Below, piece by piece: positions 8,161-28,560 of a stretch of DNA of 33,533 bases. The DNA is from a virus: the IMG/VR virus record IMGVR_UViG_3300042549_003835, positions 1 through 33,533 of that record; one strand, given 5' to 3'. How positions within the stretch are numbered: the first letter of the stretch is position 1; every line of letters begins with the position of its first letter. The notes under the pieces are model-generated. The model saw nothing but the letters and a program-made list of their open reading frames with translations. It made no database searches and was not told the origin of the DNA. Made by a program: the position numbers and the translations under genes.

Positions 8161-8226
8161 TAAAAGACCCACCACAGGTCTTATTGTATGACGAGCCACA
8201 AACAAACCAACAGTGATTGGGGGGTG

Positions 8227-8583
8227 TCAACTTTTTCTCTTACGCAAAGGCTTGGCCTTTGCCTTGGAACGCTTATAAATCCGTATGCAAGTGGCAACGC
8301 AGACAATAAGACCGAAAACAGAAACACAGACACCTACTAACTCAAAGTTATTAATGATTCCACTGACACGCTCCACGCTAACTACGCCGTCCTCAGTCTG
8401 AATCCCCTCGTCCGTAACAATAGCCACCGCACTGTTCAAGTTCCTTAAAGCCGCAAATCCAGCAACAACCGCTGAAGTTGCCATTATCCCTGCCATGCCA
8501 AAGGCAAACAGGAAGAACGACTGAGTAGCGATTATAACCTCACTTACGCTTCCTGTTCCTGCTGGTTTTAGTTTCTTTTTCAT
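8227..8583 (-). CDS. Two-helix membrane protein next to holin-like gene
   Basis: 118 residues from the ATG at 8583. Basic N-terminus, a membrane segment at about 22-46 (SFFLFAFGMAGIMATSAVVA), a periplasmic-type loop with acidic residues, and a second segment at about 81-102 (LVGVCVSVFGLIVCVATCIR), ending in a very basic tail (KRSKAKAKPLRKRKS). It overlaps the holin-like gene by 44 bases. Both termini on the cytoplasmic side by the positive-inside rule would suit a second holin or antiholin. No family was recognised. Confidence 0.55.
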   Translation of the reverse strand: MKKKLKPAGTGSVSEVIIATQSFFLFAFGMAGIMATSAVVAGFAALRNLNSAVAIVTDEGIQTEDGVVSVERVSGIINNFELVGVCVSVFGLIVCVATCIRIYKRSKAKAKPLRKRKS

Positions 8584-9896: not shown

Positions 9897-11282
9897 TTAC
9901 GGGTCAAATGCTATAAACTTACCACGGGAATGAGTCATTCCGTTAAAAGAACCAGTTGATGCGGCTGATGTTGCTACCTCTTCTTGCCAGACTACAGCCG
10001 TCACATTTGTTTGACCAGTTGGGCCTCCGTTGGTTGTTGCAACTTGAGTTCCGTTCACATAAAGAGTGACCGTCCCAGACCCGTTTGAAATCAAGTCCCA
10101 GTCGAATGCCGCACCGTCCGCAACCGTGTATGTAGATGTAATTGATGTGAGCGTAGTGCCATTGTGGGCTTCAAGAGTAAGAAGGCGTGGTGCAGTTCCG
10201 CCCGTTGCTCTCCATCCGTAACCTCTTCGTGTAAGAATGCCAACGCCATCGTTTTCCGCCTTTCCGTGATAGAAACCCCAAGAGAATACAGAATCGGTTA
10301 GTCCATTGAGGAGAGACCTTCCAGAACACCAAGAAGCATTTGAGAAGTCAAAGAATGATGTTGGATTCGATTTATCTGTCATCGAGAAAGTTTGGTCAAC
10401 TTGGCTTGTTCCAAAAGTTCTCCAACGAGACGAGCAAGCACCAGCAGTCCCAGTGCGTGTATGAGACGAAATCCATCCACCCTGTGTTAATGAAATAGTT
10501 CCAGTGTTTGTTACTTGAAATCCAGCCCGTTGAATCTGAATAATGTTTGGATTCATCATCATCCAGTGAGCCGTATTGGGGCTTAAGAAATTTGTCGTGC
10601 TGTTGCTAAACCGTGCCTCGGACGCTGTTGCGGCTGAAGGCACACCCATCTGTGATGCCGTCCTGTTCTTCCATAGACCGTCCGTATCGTAGCCCAAGAA
10701 GTTGCCAGCCGCAGGTGATGAAATGGCAACATCGTGAAGTTCGTCCATTTCAAATCCGTTGGCTATGCGGAGTTGGATAGCACCTTGGTTCTGGTGAGCG
10801 TATGTAATCGTCCCCAGAAACACCATATGGTTCGGTGCAGACGGCTTTGTAGTCGTCCAACCGCCAGCAACTGTCGGAGATAGGTAAACCTTGTCTCCGT
10901 CAGTGTAGCCATCCGTATTCAGTTTGTTGATGAACCCTGCGATGACGATTGTGCCATTGTTGTTATTGGCTATGTCCGTCTGGACAAGCCCATATGTGCC
11001 AGAGGATGTTGCTTCTGTGTTTGCTTGAGCCAAGACCGCAAGAGCCTTGTTTCCGCTCGCTCCGCTCAAATAAACGACCTGCCCCTTGGTCAAGGTTGAG
11101 CCTGTCTGGTTTCTAACTGTTGCAGTCAGTGATACGGCTGACGCACCAATCTGCACCACATCACCAGCGTCCGTCAGCGTGTAAGCGTTGCCGTTTGTTG
11201 TGTTGATGGCAACCTCGCCCGTAACCAACGCTCCAGCGGTTGGTTCGGTTGTTCCTCTTTTAAGTCGAATTGTATTTGGCAT
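9897..11282 (-). CDS. Tail fibre with lectin-like C-terminus
   Basis: 461 residues. The N-terminus (MPNTIRLKRGTTEPTAGALV ... TGEVAINTTNGNAYT) is the typical fibre attachment signature RxGTxxPTxGxLxxGElAxN found in many tail fibres. The middle is beta-rich with TG/NG turns. The C-terminal 200 residues (GRSLLNGLTDSVFSWGFYHG; GVGILTRRGYGWRATGG; WDLISNGSGTVTLYVNGTQV) look like a concanavalin/laminin-G type jelly roll, suitable for glycan binding. It starts at a TAATG junction with the 979-residue fibre gene. Host receptor recognition is inferred. Confidence 0.75.
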   Translation of the reverse strand: MPNTIRLKRGTTEPTAGALVTGEVAINTTNGNAYTLTDAGDVVQIGASAVSLTATVRNQTGSTLTKGQVVYLSGASGNKALAVLAQANTEATSSGTYGLVQTDIANNNNGTIVIAGFINKLNTDGYTDGDKVYLSPTVAGGWTTTKPSAPNHMVFLGTITYAHQNQGAIQLRIANGFEMDELHDVAISSPAAGNFLGYDTDGLWKNRTASQMGVPSAATASEARFSNSTTNFLSPNTAHWMMMNPNIIQIQRAGFQVTNTGTISLTQGGWISSHTRTGTAGACSSRWRTFGTSQVDQTFSMTDKSNPTSFFDFSNASWCSGRSLLNGLTDSVFSWGFYHGKAENDGVGILTRRGYGWRATGGTAPRLLTLEAHNGTTLTSITSTYTVADGAAFDWDLISNGSGTVTLYVNGTQVATTNGGPTGQTNVTAVVWQEEVATSAASTGSFNGMTHSRGKFIAFDP

Positions 11283-14221
11283 TAGAAAGTTCCTCCGTCA
11301 ATGGTAATATTGTCTATTGTTCCGCCAGTTATTGCAACTGCGGAAGGAATGTATGGGACGACCTGTGTCGCCCCAGTTCCAAAGATAATACCAAATCCGC
11401 TGGTAAGCAAGATGTTTCCATTGTATACGGCAAGTTTATTTGTAGAAGTCCCAGAGACAGCACCACCAATACCAACCCTGCCATCAGCACCGACAATAAA
11501 CGGAGTTGCGTCTGGGGTTGTTTCATCTTCAACGACAAGGCAAGCACCAGAGCCAGTCTGAGTTAGTCTTACAAGTGGCAGTGCAGAACCAGAACCGCTT
11601 TTTATTGCAAGTTTTGCATCAAGAACCCAAGGACTTGCAGGATTATTGCTTACCCCGATTCCGACATTTCCGTTGGCATCAATTATTGTAGCATCAGAAT
11701 CTGGATTTGCTTGGTCTTCGATTACCAAGGAGTATGCTGTTGAGATTGACGACTGATTAGTTATACGAAGAGCGGGAAGCGTAGCCGTTGTTAAGGTAAC
11801 AATTGCCTGTGGCTGTGTAAATGTATTTCCATTTTGGAGTGATGCAAGAACCTTCCAAGCACCAGTTCCATCACGGAAGTTTAGATTAGCACCACCAGTT
11901 GTAATCCAAAGGTCTCCAGCAGTTGTTGCTGATGTGCTTGTCCCTCCGATTCCAATATTTAAACCAGCCGCACCTCCAACAGGTGTAAAGTTTACTTTCC
12001 CAGTAAATGTATCACCAGCAATTTTTGCATAAGAATTTAAGTTTGGATACAAGTCTAGCAAGAATTTGCCAGTAGAAGAGTCAAAAACCAATCCATATTT
12101 TGTTACGCCGCTTGGGTCAAACGAAAACGAGAAAGCCTTCTCACGGATTAACTCTTGTATTAAAGATGGAATAAGACCACGCTTTACCACTGGCTCGTCA
12201 TAACTGTTTGACTTATTTTTCGTGAACTCGTAATTAACTGAATTACTGCTCCACATTATGTCGCTCCAAGATGGCATGACAGTTCCAGAATCAAAAGAAA
12301 CACCAGCACTTGCACTTATCCCCTCTAACAAGTCTTGGTATGTCCAGTTATAAACATCTAAAGATTCGTCAGCATATACGGAAAGTCTATCTCCGTAAGC
12401 CTCTGTTCCAAGATACCAATTTGGCACTGTTTGCGTCCAAGAGTGCATACTTGGCCCACTTCTTGTGCCAAATTCAACAACTCCAGTATTTAATCTAAAT
12501 AAATATTTAGAAAAACTTACGCTTATTGTTACAGTTCCGCTTGATGCATTTCCAAATCCATCATCTTTTGACCAAGTTCCTTGAAAGTATACCATCGGCA
12601 TCGGCTGATTAGAATAAGGAAACACCCAAGAGTTTGACTCCCTTATTGTTACAAAGTTATTTCCGCCGCCAGAGCCTCCATTGTATATTCTTAAGAAACT
12701 TCCGTCAAAATCTGTATGTGGCTCACTGCCTCCGTCAACCTTTTGAAGTTGAAAGAAGTTATGATTATGCCCAACATCCGACTTGTTAGCAAGTGATGTA
12801 TCAACTTGTAAAGTAGAGTATACGCCAATGTTAGACCTTGCTTGCGAAGCATCCGTTATTCCAGAAAGGTTTCCACTTTTTGTAAGATAATTGCTAAGGT
12901 CTGGGTTTGAACCAGAAAGAGATTCCCAATAAGACGGATGTAAAACTGGGTCGTATCCAGCCGCACCAACTGCGACTATCATTCTGTAGATTTTGCCTTC
13001 GTAATATACTTGGTTTCCGACAGTGTATGTCAGACCATTGTTATAGTCTGGAATATTGTTTCCGTCAAGTTCAACTGGAGTCCAAGTGCCGTCTTTTCTT
13101 GCATACTGAATTCCGTTAATCGGGGCTTCTGTTACTAGTGACGGAAGTTCTGTGGGAGAAAATGTCTGATTATCAATCAAGTCATTTACAATAGTAATCG
13201 GCCCTTGGTATGCCGTATGCTTTCCAGCAGAATTACTGACCTCGACCTCTATCGTGGCTGACACGGATGATGCACCAGCAAGAATGTCTTCGACTTCTTC
13301 GTTGTTAAGGCTTAAGAAGCCGTATTTAGACTTGAAACCAACAAGGCCAGTTGAGGAAACAGAGAGTGTCTCGACAGGGCCAGATGTTCTGCTAACATCC
13401 CAGTCGAAAGGCCCGACCTTTAGTGCCGAGTATGTGCTTCCTGTCGGGGTAACAGAGGTATCATTTATTCCGACCAATGTCAGTTCGTTCAGCAACTCGT
13501 CAGATGTTGCGTTGATTGAAATTGGGCCAGTAGTTAGCGTCCCGTTTGAAATTACAAAACTTCCATACTTCGGCTGTGGCTTAATTGAGACACGGGTGAT
13601 GGCTGGAGATGGATAAGAGATTACTATTGTCGGGGCAGGACTGTCGGTAAATGTCTCTTGATAAGCGACAGGAATAACCTTTGGCTTTATGTGTTGAACA
13701 TCCTTTGAGGTCGGAGAACCAACAATAATTCTCTTGTTTAAGGTTGTTGATGTTGGTCTTAGGTTTGTTGAGTCGCAAGTTATTTCAGAGCGAACCCCTG
13801 CCACATTAAACACAATTCTATATGTAAATCCATTGACAAAAGACACCACAACGCCGCCAGCGGCGGCAATTGATGGCATACTATTTATCAATGAATTTAC
13901 TGAAACTGGAACTTGCGTTGTGCTTGTAATTGGTGTCAAGAAAGGAACTTCAACAGTATCCCCCCCATATCCAAAAATAAGGTAGCCAGTAGATGGCTTT
14001 TGGTCGTTTCTGCCAACGGCAACCCTTACAATAGAGTTTGGCTCAAACTCCACTTCTTCCATGAAGGACAAACCTTTTGATGTAGAAACAAGGTGAACCT
14101 CTATTCCGACACTATCACCCTGCTTAAGCGTTGGAAGTATTGCAAGGGATTGTGCCTCCCACCCCGTAAGGAGTGAGTTGTTCTGTCCGTCAATCCAGAG
14201 CGTTAGAAGTGGAGTTGGCAT
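11282..14221 (-). CDS. Large tail fibre protein, paralogue of the next gene
   Basis: 979 residues. Residues 1-360 are paralogous to the N-terminus of the 577-residue neighbour (TLWID, LKQGDSVGIEVHLVST, FKSKYGFLSLNNEEVEDILA, TIVNDLIDN), with two copies of a beta domain containing a y/fxIVFNVA strand. A tryptophan-ended module follows at 392-434 (NNGLTYTVGNQVYYEGKIYR ... AGYDPVLHPSYW), similar to ChtBD3/CBM5_12 carbohydrate-binding modules. Then come the fibre motif ARSNIG (461-466), a long beta region, and a C-terminal section with GDLWITTGGANLNFRDGTG and NVGIG-type repeats. Likely host-binding fibre. It joins both neighbours by TAATG. Confidence 0.75.
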   Translation of the reverse strand: MPTPLLTLWIDGQNNSLLTGWEAQSLAILPTLKQGDSVGIEVHLVSTSKGLSFMEEVEFEPNSIVRVAVGRNDQKPSTGYLIFGYGGDTVEVPFLTPITSTTQVPVSVNSLINSMPSIAAAGGVVVSFVNGFTYRIVFNVAGVRSEITCDSTNLRPTSTTLNKRIIVGSPTSKDVQHIKPKVIPVAYQETFTDSPAPTIVISYPSPAITRVSIKPQPKYGSFVISNGTLTTGPISINATSDELLNELTLVGINDTSVTPTGSTYSALKVGPFDWDVSRTSGPVETLSVSSTGLVGFKSKYGFLSLNNEEVEDILAGASSVSATIEVEVSNSAGKHTAYQGPITIVNDLIDNQTFSPTELPSLVTEAPINGIQYARKDGTWTPVELDGNNIPDYNNGLTYTVGNQVYYEGKIYRMIVAVGAAGYDPVLHPSYWESLSGSNPDLSNYLTKSGNLSGITDASQARSNIGVYSTLQVDTSLANKSDVGHNHNFFQLQKVDGGSEPHTDFDGSFLRIYNGGSGGGNNFVTIRESNSWVFPYSNQPMPMVYFQGTWSKDDGFGNASSGTVTISVSFSKYLFRLNTGVVEFGTRSGPSMHSWTQTVPNWYLGTEAYGDRLSVYADESLDVYNWTYQDLLEGISASAGVSFDSGTVMPSWSDIMWSSNSVNYEFTKNKSNSYDEPVVKRGLIPSLIQELIREKAFSFSFDPSGVTKYGLVFDSSTGKFLLDLYPNLNSYAKIAGDTFTGKVNFTPVGGAAGLNIGIGGTSTSATTAGDLWITTGGANLNFRDGTGAWKVLASLQNGNTFTQPQAIVTLTTATLPALRITNQSSISTAYSLVIEDQANPDSDATIIDANGNVGIGVSNNPASPWVLDAKLAIKSGSGSALPLVRLTQTGSGACLVVEDETTPDATPFIVGADGRVGIGGAVSGTSTNKLAVYNGNILLTSGFGIIFGTGATQVVPYIPSAVAITGGTIDNITIDGGTF

Positions 14222-15954
14222 TAAACTGTAACTATGTTATATTGAGTGCCGTTGATAGTTTCAACAACAATCGTTGCAAGAACCCAACTTCCGTCTTTTC
14301 TTAAATAATATTCACCATTAGATGGTGCATCCGCAAATGTAACTGGTGCTGTGGAAATTTCAGTTCCGTCCGTAAAACTTACCGATGGGACTGTCAATGC
14401 ACCGACATAGAGAACATCTAAGATAGTATGAGTGTGTCCCGTATCAGACTTAAATCCAAGTGCCGTATTAAACGCTACCTCCGTAACATAATCTCCAGCA
14501 CTAAAGTTAATAATGTCAGAAATGCTATGAGTGTGTCCATACGGGGTCTTCGCATCAAGGGATGTCTGGAGGTCAATTATGTCAGATATGTCGTGGCCGT
14601 GAACTGCGGCGGCCCTTGTGTCTACAAGCAGGTGAATGCTCGTAGTTGACATGAACGGGTCTGTTCCGCTTGCGTTAGCAGAAACAATGGCATCAACTTG
14701 GTCTTGCGTAAAAGAACTTACTTCAAGTTGTGCAATTCTTGCCTCAAGAAGCGTGTCTGTCGTTGATAGACCAGAAATATCAGAAGTCCCGACAGCACCG
14801 ATGTTGTTTCTTGCCTGTAGTCTTTCATTGGCGTTAAGAGATTGGCTCGTATCAAATCTTACGACAGAATCGGCTGGCATCAACTCGCCCCACTGAACCG
14901 TGGTATAAGAGTCGTTGTCAATAAGGTCGTTCAGTATATTAACATTTGTCTGGAAAAGAGTCTGCCTTGTATTGTCGGCAAAAATCTCAAGTTCCATGCT
15001 GGTCGTAACGGATGTTCTTCCAGCAAGGAGGTCTTCGACCTCTGCGGTGTTTAAACTGAGAACGCCATACTTTGAGTTGAAAGAGATGATACCACCATCG
15101 TTTATGTCCATCCCTGCGACAGAGGAGTTAGATGTGGAAATATCCCAAGAGAACCTTCCCGTCTTGATACAACCCCAAGATACGAAGTTAGCAACAAGAG
15201 TCAAGGCAGAAACGATTTCAGCGGCATTCGCATCAATCGAGATTGGGAATGTCATAAAGTTACCAGACCCAATAGAGAATGTCAAAAGGAATGTTCCGTC
15301 CCTTGGCTCGGGTGCAATAGAGACTCTCCATACGCTTGAGTCTCCAGAGAACGCCTGTTGATGGATAACAGCCACATTTCCCGCAGAAGGAGACTGGCTA
15401 ACAAATGATGTTATGTTAGCGACAGGTGCTTGCTTGATGTGTATCTGGTATATCTGCTTAATTAAGGCAGTTCCTGTCCTTGCGTTATTAACGCCAATTG
15501 AGGAAGATGGAAATAGTTCATTAGACCCAACCGTTAGCGTATAAGATGGAATCTTGGCAACATTAAAGACCACTCGGTATGAGGTGCTAATCTTAGTAAC
15601 CGTAACACCGCCATCGGCGGTGATTGAGGCAAGTGCATTTAAGGCATCTTGAACTTGTAGTGCGGTTGCCGCAAATCCCAATGATGCTGTCTCACTTGGC
15701 CCGTAAGACAGTTTGAACGAACCAGCGGTTGGTGCTATGTCTATAGCACCGATAGCCAGTGTCATCGCCGCTGAAGGGGGGAATTCGACCTCGCTCATTG
15801 AGCCCCCTTGGAAGGTGGAAACCCAATGGACTTCAACGCCAATGGTATCCCCCTGCTTTAAGACTGGAATTGTTGCGGAAGATACTGACTGCCAACCAGA
15901 TAGAAGTCTGCTGGATGCTGAGTCAATCCAAAGGGTTAATGAGGGATTTGGCAT
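14221..15954 (-). CDS. Tail fibre protein, short paralogue
   Basis: 577 residues. The N-terminal 360 residues share order and motifs with the 979-residue neighbour (MPNPSLTLWIDSASSRLLSG; LKQGDTIGVEVHWVST; FNSKYGVLSLNTAEVEDLLA; NILNDLIDND). Both contain the domain pattern with AxxVQDALNAL and a following VTVTKISTSYRVVFNV strand, found twice. Next come the fibre motif ARNNIG, a helix, two GHxHxISDII segments and a final domain (GEYYLRKDGSWVLATIVVET) resembling the linker that precedes the carbohydrate module in the paralogue. A TTGACA box lies 15 bases before the ATG. It may be a connector or a shorter fibre isoform. Confidence 0.7.
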   Translation of the reverse strand: MPNPSLTLWIDSASSRLLSGWQSVSSATIPVLKQGDTIGVEVHWVSTFQGGSMSEVEFPPSAAMTLAIGAIDIAPTAGSFKLSYGPSETASLGFAATALQVQDALNALASITADGGVTVTKISTSYRVVFNVAKIPSYTLTVGSNELFPSSSIGVNNARTGTALIKQIYQIHIKQAPVANITSFVSQSPSAGNVAVIHQQAFSGDSSVWRVSIAPEPRDGTFLLTFSIGSGNFMTFPISIDANAAEIVSALTLVANFVSWGCIKTGRFSWDISTSNSSVAGMDINDGGIISFNSKYGVLSLNTAEVEDLLAGRTSVTTSMELEIFADNTRQTLFQTNVNILNDLIDNDSYTTVQWGELMPADSVVRFDTSQSLNANERLQARNNIGAVGTSDISGLSTTDTLLEARIAQLEVSSFTQDQVDAIVSANASGTDPFMSTTSIHLLVDTRAAAVHGHDISDIIDLQTSLDAKTPYGHTHSISDIINFSAGDYVTEVAFNTALGFKSDTGHTHTILDVLYVGALTVPSVSFTDGTEISTAPVTFADAPSNGEYYLRKDGSWVLATIVVETINGTQYNIVTV

Positions 15955-15987
15955 TTGATAATGGGTTTATGTCAACAAAATCGCATT

Positions 15988-22736: not shown

Positions 22737-23624
22737 TCAAGCATTGTTCTTTGTTTCAAACCCAGTCGCCTTGACGGCATCATCCCATATTTGGGAAAAC
22801 CATAAATTCATTGTGTCATGCCTTTTCTTAACTGCCGCCCTTGGGGAAGGATTGTTCATCCAGTTCCCAATATTGGCATAGTCGTTTGTAATCGAAATTG
22901 ATGTTTCGCTTTCACTGTCTTTTACTTCAACGCTACCCCTTCCCTTGTTTTGCAACCAAACGACTCCCGTCACCTTCTTGGTTCGCTTGTCTGGTTTGTT
23001 GCCAAGAGCCTTGGCCGCAATCATCCATCCGCCAGCCATCAACCCCACCCTTGTCGCAACACTATTGTTGGTCATTAATGTCTGGATGCTCTGCGGCTTT
23101 CTAACATAAATTGGAGGTTTTTTACTGCCTTTTGGCTTTCTTCCCTTTTTCCACTTATATAGCATTTCAAGGTCAGCCCTGTCTTCAACCTGCTGTCTAC
23201 CAAGTCCATCTGGAGTTATGCCACCTCTACGCATGAATTCTTGTAAAACATCAGCCCACTTCTTTTGGGAAATAAGAGAGTTTATTGTTTTATTTGTGCT
23301 TTTGAATCCATAAGCCTCACATGATGCCCAATCTTGATTTAAAAGATATTGACCAAATGTTCTGCTCTTGATTGGTCTAAATGCAATACCAACTGTTTTT
23401 TGATGGTTTTTCATAACCTTATCAAAAGACCAAGCCATTGCCGCTCCCTTTGTTGAAAGGGGGAGTGAGGACTTAATCAAGTCATGGCACATACCAGTGG
23501 CGTGTTCAGTGAGGAATACCTTTGCAAGTTCTCTATACTTGTCCTTTAATGCCCGTGTAGCGGGCATATAAGACTCCTCTATCTGGACAACGCCAGTCCC
23601 ACGCTTATTTACCGTTGTTGTCAT
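22737..23624 (-). CDS. Putative neck/minor tail protein, 295 aa
   Basis: 295 residues, occupying the position of lambda gpZ or of HK97 gp10-like neck proteins. Helical N-terminus (MPATRALKDKYRELAKVFLT; HDLIKSSLPLSTKGAAMAWS), aromatic middle, basic linker (WKKGRKPKGSKKPPIYVRKP) and a C-terminal part with NWMNNPSPRAAVKKRHDTMN. No domain was firmly recognised. The basic linker could touch DNA in the neck. It starts at a TAATG junction with the head-tail joining gene and its stop lies in a TTGACA box. Confidence 0.5.
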   Translation of the reverse strand: MTTTVNKRGTGVVQIEESYMPATRALKDKYRELAKVFLTEHATGMCHDLIKSSLPLSTKGAAMAWSFDKVMKNHQKTVGIAFRPIKSRTFGQYLLNQDWASCEAYGFKSTNKTINSLISQKKWADVLQEFMRRGGITPDGLGRQQVEDRADLEMLYKWKKGRKPKGSKKPPIYVRKPQSIQTLMTNNSVATRVGLMAGGWMIAAKALGNKPDKRTKKVTGVVWLQNKGRGSVEVKDSESETSISITNDYANIGNWMNNPSPRAAVKKRHDTMNLWFSQIWDDAVKATGFETKNNA

Positions 23625-23944
23625 TACTGATTGGACGCTATCACGAACACATCAATCCAAGGGCTTGGCGGCCTTCTAGTGACCTGTCTGATGGTATACT
23701 GGTCGTTGTATATGTTCATCGACTCCCCGTGCTTTGGAGGGGCAAGGAAGTAGACAGACCCCTCTTTGGCTAATAGTCTAACCCTGTATCCAGACTTATA
23801 CACAAAGCCACCATCCCCCAGCGTTTCCTCGATTGGGTTTGTGTCTATGAGTGCGATTACGCTTTGGTTGCGAAATTTGATTTCACGACCAAACTCAGTT
23901 AAAAATTCATTGCCGTCTGCGGCTATCTCGTCCCAAAGTGACAT
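23624..23944 (-). CDS. Putative head-tail joining protein (gpFII-like)
   Basis: 106 residues from the ATG at 23944. The frame can be read from a GTG at 23968, but those eight codons are the arm of a terminator, so 23944 is preferred. Sequence is beta-rich (REIKFRNQSVIALIDTNPIE; GGFVYKSGYRVRLLAKEGSV; DQYTIRQVTRRPPSPWIDVF), like the compact beta fold of gpFII-type stoppers with final strands IRQVTRRPP and VFVIAS. Its place between capsid and tail terminator genes fits. The start follows the terminator U-run directly, so expression needs read-through. Confidence 0.55.
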   Translation of the reverse strand: MSLWDEIAADGNEFLTEFGREIKFRNQSVIALIDTNPIEETLGDGGFVYKSGYRVRLLAKEGSVYFLAPPKHGESMNIYNDQYTIRQVTRRPPSPWIDVFVIASNQ

Positions 23945-23970
23945 AAAAAAGGGTGGCGTTTCCGCCACCC
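23945..23970 (-). terminator. Terminator abutting the head-tail joining gene
   Basis: Stem GGGTGGCG/CGCCACCC (8 bp), loop of four, then TTTTTT leftward, followed at once by the ATG at 23944. It can cut expression of the tail genes relative to the upstream structural genes. Confidence 0.75.
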
Positions 23971-23985
23971 ATTGTTACCTGTCAA

Positions 23986-24189
23986 TTAAGCAGGAGGTGG
24001 GGTATAAGACAGGCCAAGTGCCTCAATTTCAGCCATTAGTTCAGCCTTTGTGGGCTTCGTAACGACAGAGAGGGCGGTCTTAGCCTTGCCCCCGTTCTTG
24101 AGTTCGCTCATGCCATATACCTTCTTCTGGGATGGGTTATAAAACATAGTCCATCCAGCAGGTATGGTGATATCAATTAGTGTATTCAT
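23986..24189 (-). CDS. Small virion-region protein, 67 aa
   Basis: 67 residues from the ATG at 24189, three bases after the fibre gene. Two parts: a beta-like unit MNTLIDITIPAGWTMFYNPS QKKVYGMSEL and a helix KPTKAELMAEIEALGLSY ending in PPPA. The C-terminal KPTKAELMAEIEALG pattern resembles the SAP/HeH-like helix-extended-loop-helix seen at the end of many small phage head proteins (TKAELIAxLxxxG), although the PPPA end truncates it. Followed by a terminator, so it is the last gene of the capsid-side unit. Confidence 0.55.
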   Translation of the reverse strand: MNTLIDITIPAGWTMFYNPSQKKVYGMSELKNGGKAKTALSVVTKPTKAELMAEIEALGLSYTPPPA

Positions 24190-24192
24190 GGG

Positions 24193-24855
24193 TTAAGAAA
24201 AAGTGTAGTATCCTCCGTTGCCATCGGAGTAGTAATAAGTGTAAATATCAGTCATGCTTCCATCGTCATAGTAAGACTGTGAGCCAAAGTAAGTTCCGTA
24301 TGAGGCATATGATGTTGATGAATCGGTGTAGTATCCTCCCATTCCGTCATGGTATTCTGTGTATGAGTAAGTTCCGTTTTCATACTGAGTTCCGTTTATG
24401 TCTATGTAGTTTGGATAACTATCGCCATTACCCGTTGGTTCTCCGTATGAAGGATATCCGCCACCTCCTCCAGTATATTCGCCTTGATAATAACTGCCCT
24501 CTCCATTTGAGTAATAATTATAGTCGTTGCAATTTCCGAGATACTGACCATACTCATAATAACTATTTCCGCTTTCCGAGTAAGTTCCTCCCATGCCATC
24601 TGCATAAATACTGTAGTCGCTACTTCCGACCTGCCAATCGCTACATCCAGCATTAGCATATATTGGAGAACTATTCCCTTCAATGTATGTTCCATATGCT
24701 GGATATTCGCCACCCCCACCCGTGTATTCGCCTTGATATGAGCCACCTTGGCCGTCCGCATAGTAGTTGTAATCATTGCAGTTGCCAATTGAAGTTCCGT
24801 AAGAATAGTAATTATTGCCGCCGCTTGTGTATGTTCCACCCATGCCGTCAGCGTA
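24193..24855 (-). repeat. Three tandem 250-bp coding repeats
   Basis: Direct repeats inside the 794-residue fibre gene: units begin at residues 575, 658 and 742 (about 24855, 24606 and 24354), each opening with xYxDGMGGxY; the first two continue with NYYxYG and GNCNDYNYY. Period is 83-84 codons; the last copy is truncated by the stop codon. A more diverged copy precedes them (residues 445-560). Such repeats can expand or contract by recombination. Confidence 0.8.
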
Positions 24856-26577
24856 TGTAGTAGAACTGTAAGTTCCAGTAGTGAAACTTCCGCAACCAAC
24901 ATCAACAGTATAGTTTCCGCCATCACTGCTTAACTCAGTGCCATAAGGCGGGAATGCGTTGACTTCTTCCGTATAATAACTTCCAGAGCCGTTTGTATAA
25001 TATCTATAAGTAGAGTCCTCTGTCAATAGAGTTCCGCTCGGAATATATGAACTTGAAATCTCAACTCCACTGCTTCCGCAGTTTCCATCAGCGATAGTGT
25101 CTTCGTATTGATACCCGACAGTATATGTTCCTGCGTTAATTATGATGGTTAAATCGGTAGTAACTCTTCCGATTGAAGTTCCAGCGGCTGGGCAGTTGTT
25201 TGTCTTTGGTTCAGAGTAATAACTGCCAGCACCATCAGAGTAGTAATAATTGTCAAGTCCATCGTGAACCTGTTGTCCGTTAGGAACATAAACCATGCCC
25301 GTGCATTCACCCCAGATAACATATCCATATCCATCATCCATTCCACGCTTCGTGTTCGTTCCAAGAGTAACGCTGACACCCTCAATCTGAACTACAATTG
25401 GTTCTGCACAATTCTCGTAAACGCTAAACGGATAAACAATAGTTGGGTCACACTCATCTGTTGCTCCACCATTAACAGGGTTTATAAGCGGTCTCCTCAC
25501 TGAGCATGGAGGGGGAGGAGGTTGGTCTGGCGTTTCTGCCTCAAACTTCCAGACAACCGTCCCTTCCTGCACATTGTCAATTCTGCCAACCCAAGCACCA
25601 GAATGAATTCTTTCATCTCCATCGACTTTATATGTAACTAAGTATCTACCATTTGGAATTGGTTGCCCAATTTGGTCTGTTATTGAAAGGTCGTTATCAA
25701 ACTTATATGGAGCATCCCCAACAATATAATTAACCCAAGTTGTTTGATACCTTCCATCTTTATCTTCTCTTCGCTTCACGCCAGTCTCTTTCACTTCTGT
25801 CGTTCCACCATTGCCATCCGCAACTATATATGTTGTTGGGGATTTTGTAATATATCTTGGATTATAATAAGGGCCGTATGCAGTTCCTCCGAAATCAAGC
25901 GAATATATTGTCTTTGTTTCTATTTTAAATTCACTGATAATGTCTTGGAAGTCTATCCTGTATCCATTGGGGTAGAAACATGGGCTGTTTCCTTCTCCAG
26001 TCGTTTGATGCTCAATTCTTCCGCTAGAATATCTTTTTACGGTTTTATTTATATAAGACCCGTTAAAGACAGTTCCATCTCTGTCGTATCCCAAAACAAA
26101 TCCACATTCTTCCGTTGTAGATAAGAGAGTGTCATTAGCATCTGCAAAAGGGCTAGACCCGTTGGCTAACTGATTGACATTGAATGCCATCCCCTTGCTT
26201 GCTCCATCATTTAATCCAGTGCTTGAAATTGGGGGGGCTGGCGGTGGCAATGTAACATTAGTTGTCCAAGCGGAAGGATGGGTAACTGGGCCGTATCCGC
26301 CAGCCCCGATGAAGTTAATTAACTTGTAAACTGTTCCGTTGAGTTTAACTAATGCTCCAGTGCCATATGTTGCCCCGTTGTTATATTCTGGGATAGAGTC
26401 TGAGAGATTACCAAAGTCTAAACTAGCCTTGGGTGCGGCATAAAGGTAAGCCACGCCATCCGTGGTTATCGTCTTGTAGAAGTCCTTGGCCTCGGACATT
26501 GTATTGAACTGCTTCACATAGCCGCCACCATCGGAATTGACGACTATAATAACTGGATGATTTGGTCTATATGCCAT
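24193..26577 (-). CDS. Tyr/Gly-rich repeat fibre in the head gene region
   Basis: 794 residues. Residues 1-55 are a small domain shared with the next genes upstream (VIIVVNSDGGG ... AYLYAAP). Residues 64-104 are a Trp-ended module (EYNNGATYGTGALVKLNG ... GYGPVTHPSAW) also present in the 979-residue tail fibre. Residues 120-440 are a beta-rich region with Cys residues near 358-433. From about 445 to the end it is a Tyr/Gly/Asp repeat with at least eight YxDGxGxxY units and three copies of an 83-84-residue unit. It lies between capsid and neck genes, not with the tail fibres, so a head fibre or capsid-decorating adhesin is inferred. Joined to the upstream gene by TGATG. Confidence 0.65.
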   Translation of the reverse strand: MAYRPNHPVIIVVNSDGGGYVKQFNTMSEAKDFYKTITTDGVAYLYAAPKASLDFGNLSDSIPEYNNGATYGTGALVKLNGTVYKLINFIGAGGYGPVTHPSAWTTNVTLPPPAPPISSTGLNDGASKGMAFNVNQLANGSSPFADANDTLLSTTEECGFVLGYDRDGTVFNGSYINKTVKRYSSGRIEHQTTGEGNSPCFYPNGYRIDFQDIISEFKIETKTIYSLDFGGTAYGPYYNPRYITKSPTTYIVADGNGGTTEVKETGVKRREDKDGRYQTTWVNYIVGDAPYKFDNDLSITDQIGQPIPNGRYLVTYKVDGDERIHSGAWVGRIDNVQEGTVVWKFEAETPDQPPPPPCSVRRPLINPVNGGATDECDPTIVYPFSVYENCAEPIVVQIEGVSVTLGTNTKRGMDDGYGYVIWGECTGMVYVPNGQQVHDGLDNYYYSDGAGSYYSEPKTNNCPAAGTSIGRVTTDLTIIINAGTYTVGYQYEDTIADGNCGSSGVEISSSYIPSGTLLTEDSTYRYYTNGSGSYYTEEVNAFPPYGTELSSDGGNYTVDVGCGSFTTGTYSSTTYADGMGGTYTSGGNNYYSYGTSIGNCNDYNYYADGQGGSYQGEYTGGGGEYPAYGTYIEGNSSPIYANAGCSDWQVGSSDYSIYADGMGGTYSESGNSYYEYGQYLGNCNDYNYYSNGEGSYYQGEYTGGGGGYPSYGEPTGNGDSYPNYIDINGTQYENGTYSYTEYHDGMGGYYTDSSTSYASYGTYFGSQSYYDDGSMTDIYTYYYSDGNGGYYTFS

Positions 26578-26777
26578 CAGAGTGTTAATTCAATTGGGTT
26601 CGGGTTGCCAATAGCAGACTTTCTCTTTGATGGCGTAAAATAATAATAAGCATCTAGCCCGTCTGAAATCGCCTGTTTGTAAGCAATCTGACATTCGGTA
26701 GAGTTTTCATACTGCTTCACCTTGATTGTATTGTCAAGATTAACTATAATCAATGTTGAGTATTTTTTGATATACAT
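26577..26777 (-). CDS. Stand-alone copy of the fibre N-terminal domain
   Basis: 66 residues from the ATG at 26777. Core STLIIVNLDNTIKVKQYENS then CQIAYKQAISDGLDAYYYFT matches in order the N-terminus of the adjoining fibre (VIIVVNSDGG, KQF, FYKTITTDGVAYLYAAP). It shares a single base with the fibre start (TGATG), as if a gene fusion had been split or a domain duplicated. Family unknown. Inferred role: a competing or partner subunit for the same virion attachment site. A terminator lies directly upstream of its start. Confidence 0.6.
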   Translation of the reverse strand: MYIKKYSTLIIVNLDNTIKVKQYENSTECQIAYKQAISDGLDAYYYFTPSKRKSAIGNPNPIELTL

Positions 26778-26785
26778 ATACCAAT

Positions 26786-26813
26786 AAAAAGGGGTGGCTT
26801 GATGCCACCCCTT
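26786..26813 (-). terminator. Strong terminator between paralogous small genes
   Basis: 10-bp perfect stem (AAGGGGTGGC/GCCACCCCTT), 5-base loop, then leftward TTTTTATT. It separates the 115-residue gene from the fibre unit and should reduce fibre expression relative to the genes upstream. Confidence 0.8.
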
Positions 26814-26834
26814 GATATCTGTCCACCGATATTG

Positions 26835-27182
26835 TTATTCTAAGTCGATAGCCACATCCGAAGATGTTGCTTTCGGGTTGAATGACTTTCCAGAGAACTT
26901 TTCCTTTGTCTTAACAACCCATCCGCTTTGTTTGGCTTCCTGCTTAACTTCCTGTGCTTCGGCTGGCTTATTATAGACCATCTTAGCCAACTCCTTTGTT
27001 TCAGCCGCCGACTTGCACCGCTTGTCGGCTACTGGGTGCTGATAGAAGTATGCTTCCTTGCCTTCTTCACGGGCTTTAACGAAATCATTGATTCCGACTT
27101 GGCTATCCTTCTTGTCATACGCTTTTGAGGTAAGGTTTCCCTTCGCATCAACTGTAACAAGGAACGAGAATGTTTTAGACAT
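26835..27182 (-). CDS. Paralogous small domain protein with Lys-rich tail
   Basis: 115 residues. Residues 4-55 follow the shared pattern: FSFLVTVDAKGN strand, SKAYDKKDSQVG, helix INDFVKAREEG, then KEAYFYQHP, ending as in the fibre domain with AY-aromatic-x-x-P. The rest is helical and Lys/Glu-rich (KSAAETKELAKMVYNKPAEA). A TTGACA box ends 28 bases before the ATG, with only a weak CACCAT -10 candidate. It lies close to the capsid gene, so a virion decoration or assembly role is inferred. Confidence 0.6.
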   Translation of the reverse strand: MSKTFSFLVTVDAKGNLTSKAYDKKDSQVGINDFVKAREEGKEAYFYQHPVADKRCKSAAETKELAKMVYNKPAEAQEVKQEAKQSGWVVKTKEKFSGKSFNPKATSSDVAIDLE

Positions 27183-27224
27183 ATTGGTATGGTGAGTGGT
27201 TTGTGGCTGGTGTCAAGGACTAAA

Positions 27225-27455
27225 TTAGTCCCACTGGTCGAGATTTGTCGGAATAGAAACCGTATCATCTCGATGGAACTTTGTTGGCTGGGGCTGTTCA
27301 AAAAGTAGAACCCGAGTGTTGGCATTGCCAACTTCGACCTTGAAAGCCTGTCTAGCATCCTTTACATTTGAGAAAATGTAAGAATCACGAGAAACAGTGT
27401 CTAGAACGGGGTCGAATCTTTCAACAATAATTAACGAATAGTCTGGATGAGCCAT
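27225..27455 (-). CDS. Paralogous small domain protein, first after capsid gene
   Basis: 76 residues from the ATG at 27455. The shared pattern is visible but more diverged: SLIIVERFDP strand, RDSYIF, helix DARQAFKVEV, then VLLFEQP, with the aromatic-x-x-P ending. It directly follows the major capsid gene and its terminator. A TTGACA box lies 14 bases before the ATG. By position it matches the FI-like site between capsid and neck genes, but the sequence is not FI-like. A capsid-associated role is inferred. Confidence 0.55.
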   Translation of the reverse strand: MAHPDYSLIIVERFDPVLDTVSRDSYIFSNVKDARQAFKVEVGNANTRVLLFEQPQPTKFHRDDTVSIPTNLDQWD

Positions 27456-27485: not shown

Positions 27486-27510
27486 AAAAGACCCCCATTT
27501 CTGGGGGTCT
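27486..27510 (-). terminator. Terminator after major capsid gene
   Basis: 8-bp stem AGACCCCC/GGGGGTCT with a 6-base loop, followed leftward by TTTGTTTG (four T counting the last stem base). It lies 23 bases after the capsid stop and just before a TTGACA box, the usual end of a highly expressed capsid transcript. Confidence 0.75.
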
Positions 27511-27532
27511 CGTTAGTTATCTAACCTTTAGA

Positions 27533-28480
27533 TTAGATAGCGATAATCTTACCGAGAGTGCCTGTCGAACCAATCTGCACACCGTAAAGGATGCTCATCG
27601 ACAGTTTCTGCTTGCCCGAGTCACCATCATACCATTCACGGACTTGGACGGTAAGGCCAGACTTTTCGTCTGTGGCCGAGGCGACATTGCCATACCAGTT
27701 CTGAGGAAGGGCTGGCTGGCGTGTGGCGATAAGGATGGACTCTGGGGTGCAAGCGATGCCCTTCATGTTGGCAACGGAAGCAGGGAGAGCGGTATACTGA
27801 TTGACTTCGAAGCCGTGGATACGGGGCAGAAGGTTCTCAGTCAGAGGGGCATTTGTGCCAGACGCATACTGGGCAGAAATGGCGTTGTCCTTAGCGAGTG
27901 ATGTGTAAAGCGAGGGCTTGACAATCAGAATGCGGTTGGCTTGAGGAACATTGCGGTTCGTCAGAGCCTCGGAGATGGAAGCCACAGCGTCAGCATCGAA
28001 GGCGGCAACTGTGCCGTTGTAAGCGTGGACGGTGGGGTTAGTGACAGCATCCCAATCAAGACCATCGACCGTTTCACGGTAGTTGGCGTTGGTGACGAGG
28101 GCGAAGATATCATCAAGGACGGCCTTGGAGACGGCGTGAGCCGCAGGACGGATGAAGGTGCGGCGAAGCACATCATAACCACCCTTAGCGACTTCACCAT
28201 CGGAGAAGCCCATCACGAAGCCTTTATGCTTGTCGAGGGTGATTTTGCGTTCCAGAGACTCAACATCAGTGACTTGGTAGCCGTTAGCACCAATGTCAGT
28301 GATTGTCGTGACTGGAGAAGCGATGCGGGTAGCAACGGTTTCGCCACGGGTAGCGATTTCACCGCCGAAGTTCGTAGTGAACTTAGAGATGAGTGGGAAC
28401 TCAGCAAGGAGCGTTGAAAGCGAATCCTGTGCGATGAGATTGAGGTTAATGCCCCCAATTGCGTTAGTGCCAAGTGACAT
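27533..28480 (-). CDS. Major capsid protein
   Basis: 315 residues, in lambda E position. Features of an HK97-fold coat: N-terminal arm (LNLIAQDSLSTLLAEFPLIS), E-loop-like segment (GETVATRIASPVTTITDIGA), long spine helix after RRTFIRPAAHAVSKAVLDDI, P-domain (DADAVASISEALTNRNVPQA NRILIVKPSLY) and an A-domain strand set (GFEVNQYTALPASVANMKGI; VQVREWYDGDSGKQKLSMSI). The pattern is close to small P22/lambda-like coat proteins that use a separate scaffold, which lies upstream. It sits between two terminators and has its own TTGACA box, suggesting separately controlled, strong expression. Confidence 0.85.
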   Translation of the reverse strand: MSLGTNAIGGINLNLIAQDSLSTLLAEFPLISKFTTNFGGEIATRGETVATRIASPVTTITDIGANGYQVTDVESLERKITLDKHKGFVMGFSDGEVAKGGYDVLRRTFIRPAAHAVSKAVLDDIFALVTNANYRETVDGLDWDAVTNPTVHAYNGTVAAFDADAVASISEALTNRNVPQANRILIVKPSLYTSLAKDNAISAQYASGTNAPLTENLLPRIHGFEVNQYTALPASVANMKGIACTPESILIATRQPALPQNWYGNVASATDEKSGLTVQVREWYDGDSGKQKLSMSILYGVQIGSTGTLGKIIAI

Positions 28481-28534: not shown

Positions 28535-28560
28535 AATAAAAGAGCCCCTTTCGGGGCTCT
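28535..28560 (-). terminator. Terminator upstream of capsid transcript
   Basis: 8-bp stem AGAGCCCC/GGGGCTCT, loop of four, followed leftward by TTTTATTTG; on the plus strand GTTTTT follows, so it may work in both directions. It isolates the capsid gene from the basic gene upstream. Confidence 0.75.

Follow-up and report, generated by a model that had tools for sequence, protein, structure and literature searches.

Proteins in which a capsid anchor carries adhesive parts have precedents in T5 pb10, T4 Hoc and phi29 gp8.5 (PMC7602432). Both pb10 and Hoc fuse a small capsid-binding domain to outward surface-binding modules and have a role in adhesion rather than stability (PMC7602432, PMC5292684, PMC10385173); phi29 gp8.5 and SPP1 gp12 form head fibres or spikes suggested to aid adsorption (PMC7602432), and the capsid fibres of phage 7-7-1 make the first contact with the flagellum (PMC12796354). 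In the turret of HFTV1, the base protein gp30 sits on capsid hexamers, while gp31, the head protein, is trimeric and is proposed to contain a carbohydrate-binding module; the two genes are consecutively numbered (PMC12494034). The head of Sf14 bears two different decoration proteins, gp33 and gp20 (PMC11821841). Here we describe a 33.5 kb IMG/VR virus record from an uncultured phage (IMGVR_UViG_3300042549_003835; this whole stretch is hereafter the window), in which four adjacent genes behind the major capsid protein gene share one small domain, present as free copies in classes A, C and E and as the N-terminus of a long fibre-like protein in class F. Decoration proteins are usually known as single genes. 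The capsid gene product, which also gives a weak match to Pfam P22_CoatProtein (4.6e-4), and the four domain-bearing genes are laid out as follows.

27533..28480, minus strand: major capsid protein gene (HK97/P22-type major head protein; phrog_283 major head protein, E-value 4.8e-27)
27225..27455, minus strand: class A free copy, 76 amino acids (aa); domain at about residues 4-56, then the tail motif PTKFHRDD
26835..27182, minus strand: class C free copy, 115 aa; domain at about residues 5-51, then PVADKRCKS, a charged linker and the acidic C-terminus AIDLE
26577..26777, minus strand: class E free copy, 66 aa; domain and a conserved P-x-KRK...PIxxTL tail, with a 1-nt overlap with the start of F
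24193..26577, minus strand: class F fibre-linked copy, 794 aa, by profile membership and the F model
26413..26577, minus strand: N-terminal anchor domain of F, residues 1-55 (hidden Markov model E-value 2e-13)
26254..26397, minus strand: CBM5/12-like (chitin-binding-type) module of F, residues 61-108, by VIA-align and by Pfam in the orthologue of locus L005
24196..25272, minus strand: repeat stalk of F, with four beta repeats, each of about 82 residues, by AlphaFold2 model and motif counts

The window system is like pb10 and Hoc in its overall plan, but those proteins use immunoglobulin-like modules, come as a single gene without a free paralogue set, and have an anchor domain that differs from the one described here, no homology being detected. 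The phi29 fibre, encoded after the capsid gene, is a helical coiled coil and gp12 is collagen-like, whereas the window combines a beta-repeat stalk with several paralogues. Sf14 resembles the window in having several decoration proteins, but its gp33 and gp20 have unrelated folds and are not paralogous. The HFTV1 turret is a functional model for the coupled E and F genes described below, although HFTV1 is an archaeal virus and no sequence link to E-F was found. Capsid anchors with adhesive parts are thus already a known kind (pb10, Hoc, gp8.5, gp12, the HFTV1 turret); the apparent novelty lies in the anchor family, in its growth to up to six classes and in a base-plus-fibre pair that moves. 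A literature search covering open-licence papers found no description of a comparable paralogue set. The domain family itself appears undescribed, with no meaningful match in Pfam or NCBIfam, none among PDB sequences and one marginal match in PHROGs among 44 family members, in agreement with an initial annotation of the window, which knew of no described family with this pattern.

That annotation had placed the four open reading frames (ORFs) behind the capsid gene and had proposed that they share one small domain; all four are present at the stated coordinates, on the minus strand behind the major head protein gene. Pairwise BLAST among the four domains linked only E and F (E-value about 1e-7); because of this, the capsid-gene neighbourhoods of relatives (loci designated L plus a number) were fetched and a profile was built for each domain. 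Iterative profiles seeded separately from each window domain recovered the same 59 ORFs, all four window genes included, and in the converged profiles the window members score E-values of 1e-10 to 1e-20. In a leave-one-class-out control, with a domain's own class removed from the profile and 2000 shuffles per window domain, the scores were 31.4 bits for A, 19.6 for C, 45.0 for E and 29.0 for F, and none of the 2000 shuffles reached the real score in any of the four cases (best shuffle 13.0 bits). Profile-profile probabilities between class groups were 92-97%. Against classes C, E and F only, with A, B and D excluded, window A scored 8.4 bits, a value reached by 1 of 2000 shuffles, and D and B members kept 28-33 bits in the same test; since A alone is weak against C/E/F, window A is joined to the family via classes B and D of the relatives. 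The real scores therefore exceed those of shuffled sequences in the comparison that the initial annotation had suggested as a check, chance similarity is ruled out by the shuffle and leave-one-class-out controls, and it is confirmed that the four window genes contain one homologous domain of about 50 residues. Within the window, profile searches matched the four post-capsid ORFs only, with no tail gene among the matches. The motifs named in the initial annotation can likewise be seen: the IIV/FLV strand as described, the K/R-x-Y/F segment as KVKQY, TSKAY and YVKQF (RDSYIF in A), the helix with AxxxYK/FK as IAYK, NDFVK, QAFK and DFYK, and the ending aromatic-x-x-P as YFTP, YQHP, FEQP and YAAP.

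An AlphaFold2 model of the 66-residue E protein, made with 44 family rows, has a beta-beta-alpha-beta order (strand 7-12, strand 18-23, helix 26-38, strand 42-46) with a mean predicted local distance difference test score (pLDDT) of 81, rising to 87-93 over residues 11-50; the N-terminus of the F model has the matching strand-strand-helix-strand order at low pLDDT. Foldseek searches of PDB and BFVD and a VIA-align comparison gave no significant fold match (best E-values 0.019 in BFVD and 0.59 in PDB; VIA-align Z 4.8), which means little because the arrangement is small and common. In all classes described, the domain is followed by a proline and then a basic, class-specific motif: PTKFxRND in A, B and D, PxxDKRCKS or PxxDRRSKS in C, PxKRKxT in E and PxKSL in F. 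Its position is always N-terminal, and behind it stands nothing, a charged tail or a fibre of 550-940 residues.

Among loci whose capsid protein is at least 63% identical to that of the window, all that continue past the capsid gene carry at least one domain copy (L078 and L091 end before any such sequence), and the more distant capsid relatives L092 and L093 (28-29% identity) carry none. Each virus has one to six copies, falling into orthologous classes A-F: free copies of 76-83 aa (A), 66-69 aa (B), 70-127 aa (C, with a charged tail that often has an acidic motif at its end) and 66 aa (E), and fused copies of 639-673 aa (D) and 607-995 aa (F). The window holds A, C, E and F. L005 and L007 have A-B-C-D-E-F consecutively, L023 has A-B-C-D, and the L004 virus has B-C-D behind the capsid gene and E-F elsewhere on its 80.6 kb contig; in L020, L032 and L042, E-F comes first after the capsid gene, followed by a divergent A-like copy and then C. 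L006, L008 and L009 have C only, and most remaining loci have an A-like copy and C, making C the near-universal class. In a domain tree of 61 columns, which is unrooted and short with long branches, support was 99/98 for C, 100/100 for F, 97/96 for D, 98/99 for E+F and 100/99 for A+B+D, each as one side of a branch; the A-like copies of distant viruses fall outside true A, and E and F are sister classes. Since the tree supports both A+B+D and E+F, the fibre-linked classes D and F belong to separate groups. The ratio of non-synonymous to synonymous substitution rates (dN/dS) for pairs from related viruses in each of the six classes was 0.04-0.21 where dS was finite, near the 0.09 of the capsid gene, indicating that the family members are real genes under purifying selection. 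The class-specific motifs are retained across divergent viruses, and some viruses keep all six classes together. The duplication of one domain that the initial annotation had suggested is thus borne out by the shared profile and by the paralogue classes, as is its pairing of free with fibre-linked copies, to which the relatives add the second fibre-linked class, D.

Class C proteins often end, after a charged linker, in a short acidic motif (AIDLE, LDIE, VDLE or TDLD; 26835-26850 in the window), possibly a second binding peptide. The 127-residue gene that separates F from the A-like copy in two loci (L042:5167-5550, L020:10031-10414) looks similar by eye (FSVAIFAT...), but hhalign gave no support and it was rejected as a member. 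The nearest cultured phages found are Verrucomicrobia phage P8625 (28% identity to the window in the capsid protein, 24% in the portal) and Akkermansia phage Moulinsart (23% in the portal). P8625 yielded no family member: P8625_12, which follows the capsid gene there, bears only a weak resemblance (single-sequence hhalign E-value 0.027) and was not supported as a distant member. Cultured-phage homologues of F, C and D were not found, and a search of genome contigs with the capsid and class C profiles for a prophage or host link gave no match.

The E-F junction reads TGATG, TAATG or TGATATG, with a 1-nt overlap or a 1-nt gap in all eight pairs, which suggests that the two genes are translationally coupled and have a fixed partnership. 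At every one of these eight junctions E is the upstream gene, unlike the Tfa/gp38-type chaperone genes, which lie downstream of the fibre gene. The pair directly follows the capsid gene in L020, L032, L042 and L083, and C or D in the window, L005 and L007. In the L004 virus it is found at about 42.3-42.7 kb (about 40.6-42.7 kb in the entry for locus L062), some 16 kb from the capsid gene at about 26 kb and beside a 676-residue ORF named primase-like by eye; this position suggests movement as a cassette. E is probably a small base subunit translated together with its partner, the F fibre, and the two would move as one cassette.

In the two fibre-linked classes, D and F, the domain is the N-terminal anchor of repeat fibres of 600-995 residues. 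Residues 61-108 of the window F have a CBM5/12 fold according to VIA-align, in which the top 14 rows reached Z 5.6-6.5 and the next row 3.2; 13 of the 14 are chitin-active enzyme entries (chitinase B and other chitinases or deacetylases) and the last is the cyanophage A-1(L) tail fibre. These alignments span 45-50 residues at 17-32% identity, and Z values under 8 mean fold likeness and no proof of function. Pfam CBM_5_12 (PF02839) did not match the window F, and its match to the L005 orthologue (E-value 5.5e-4, 20.4 bits) is below the curated cut-off of 26.2 bits. Unlike the modules of chitinase B and A-1(L), the one in F sits directly behind a putative capsid anchor. By alignment, the F proteins of L020, L042 and L032 have no CBM-like segment, indicating that the segment beside the anchor is exchangeable. 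The final ~360 residues of F make up four beta repeats, each about 82 residues long (pLDDT mostly 55-85, the period being taken from strand positions) with the motifs YxDGxGxYY and ADGxCGTY; eight copies of the DGxGxxY type are present, against at most two in 300 shuffles. The stalks of D and F have repeat material in common (phmmer E-values down to 1e-14, with a risk from low complexity), and because of this two separate fusions and one ancestral fibre with repeated stalk loss are indistinguishable. Two uncultured phage proteins in BFVD score high with F in Foldseek (E-values 3e-20 and 6e-10) and superpose poorly, so that these matches probably reflect sequence and repeat likeness. A second CBM5/12-like segment occurs in a 979-residue tail-region protein of the window (11282-14221; residues 393-432, Pfam E-value 2e-4).

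We propose that the domain is a clade-specific outer-head anchor duplicated into free decoration subunits and fibre feet, which we consider the probable reading. It is made plausible by the place of the genes, which come straight after the capsid gene both in the window and in relatives, by their constant co-occurrence with this capsid type and by the N-terminal position of the domain on fibres; apart from the E-F pair of the L004 virus, they lie in the head module beside the capsid gene, as expected of decoration and head-fibre genes. We infer head attachment from gene position and architecture, and a virion location, capsid binding, outward orientation and adhesion are predicted in the same way. 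The small beta-beta-alpha-beta anchor would fix proteins to the outer head of this tailed-phage clade and would have been duplicated into a set of specialised subunits, in which the free copies A, B, C and E may serve as decoration or base subunits and D and F would use the anchor fold as the N-terminal foot of long outward-pointing repeat fibres. In the window F, the chitin-binding-type module directly above the foot would be suited to weak adhesion to surface glycans. A more specific scheme, in which one new anchor fold radiated into up to six subunits at different head positions (plugs and two fibre feet) with E-F as a mobile display cassette, is put forward only tentatively. Several points weigh against an outer-head anchor: virion location and capsid contact are read from position and architecture; the L004 virus E-F pair is far from the head genes; the F model (mean pLDDT 52.6) is weak except in the repeats; no known decoration protein was matched significantly by Pfam, PHROGs, NCBIfam, a PDB profile search, Foldseek or VIA-align; and neck or connector parts can also be encoded between the capsid gene and the head-tail genes.

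An alternative attachment site for the domain is the neck, connector or tail in place of the head shell, the fibres then being whiskers or side tail fibres. The gene block does adjoin head-tail joining genes (a 114 aa gene at 23624-23968 weakly matches phrog_2551, minor tail protein), and a CBM5/12 module is also found in the 979-residue tail-region protein and in the A-1(L) tail fibre, but the domain is never found in tail genes, its genes come first behind the capsid gene, and up to six paralogues are above the usual need of a neck ring, making such a site unlikely. It seems quite unlikely that the free copies, E for F especially, are not virion parts but chaperones or adaptors that help the fibre-linked copies to assemble. 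The apparent translational coupling of E to F in eight of eight pairs and the sister relationship of the two classes would agree with such a role, yet C occurs without any detected fibre-linked copy in many loci, as in those with C only, and known fibre chaperones are usually encoded downstream of the fibre gene and are non-homologous to the fibre foot.

The initial annotation had instead supposed that a single capsid site is contested, or occupied in turn, by free and fibre-linked copies; in such a model the ratio of the two would set the fibre number. A shared fold is what this predicts, and terminator-like hairpins between the genes could set the ratios; however, the class motifs are distinct (PxxDKRCKS in C, PTKFxRND in A/B/D, PxKRK in E) and separately conserved under purifying selection, and six classes coexist, leaving this part of the annotation unsupported. 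Because the classes stay distinct and are conserved separately, different positions or roles fit better than interchangeable occupants, and competition at a single site is improbable. That the small proteins act in the cell, in host take-over or immunity, with only F and D being structural, is very improbable: small genes among structural genes can be accessory, and the E-F pair of the L004 virus is near a replication-like gene, but long fibre-like proteins have this very domain as their foot, no locus of sufficient extent lacks C, and no toxin or enzyme family match was seen.

If the outer-head anchor is correct, the domain looks like a modular way of dressing a virus head, its capsid binding being deduced from context. 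A conserved paralogue set on one anchor raises the question of how a quasi-symmetric shell assigns similar feet to sites, and bears on the acquisition and exchange of head fibres by phages; should capsid binding be confirmed, the E-F cassette and the anchor could also provide a display tag. The family also marks a clade of uncultured phages that are distant kin of Verrucomicrobiota phages.

Around the domain genes, the window has further features that concern expression and gene layout.

27488..27511, minus strand: terminator-like hairpin in the interval between the capsid gene and A; an equivalent hairpin is present in L005
27470..27476, minus strand: GTTGACA element, 14 nt before the A start codon
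27211..27216, minus strand: TTGACA element, 28 nt before the C start codon
26789..26813, minus strand: terminator-like hairpin in the interval between C and E-F; an equivalent hairpin precedes E in L005
23986..24189, minus strand: 67-residue gene after F, a non-member of the family recovered by no profile

Terminator-like hairpins stand between successive late structural genes (28541-28560, 27488-27511, 26789-26813 and 23951-23970) and are often followed directly by TTGACA, an arrangement that would suit separate expression of each structural gene or pair. As matches to a consensus, the hairpin that separates A from the capsid gene and the one that separates E-F from C may cause less fibre than capsid to be made. 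In a survey of 60 nt upstream of each of 298 ATG ORFs, chosen mechanically from 19 sequences that are related and hence give non-independent counts, TTGACA was the most enriched hexamer (115 of 298 ORFs against 13.8 expected, 8.3-fold), and Shine-Dalgarno-like 4-mers were depleted (13 against 29 in shuffled upstream sequence). The whole window contains 52 TTGACA, against 27 expected, a count reached in 0 of 100 shuffles. The (G)TTGACA elements fall into two distance classes, 13-17 nt and about 27-40 nt before the start codon; those of the near class continue as TTGACA-N5-C(C/A)A and are not ordinary sigma-70 promoters, because they are too close to the ATG for an intervening -10 box. TTGACA lies 13-23 nt before the start of all true A and B copies, of three of the four D copies, and of the E copies directly after the capsid gene in L020, L032 and L042; in the D copy of L004 it is 12 nt before an internal GTG start. 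(G)TTGACA is a candidate initiation or promoter signal in this phage clade. A single-subunit RNA polymerase that could explain it was sought with PF00940, which had no match, but the control likewise had none. Further elements lie at 15970-15976 and 8225-8231 of the window, and (G)TTGACA is also seen across L003-L045.

Two other proteins of the window gave matches: a 461-residue protein (9897-11282) weakly matches Mtd_N, the N-terminal domain of the major tropism determinant (E-value 0.02), and a 577-residue tail-region protein (14221-15954) contains the phage tail repeat PTR (PF12789, E-value 5e-19) at residues 448-514.

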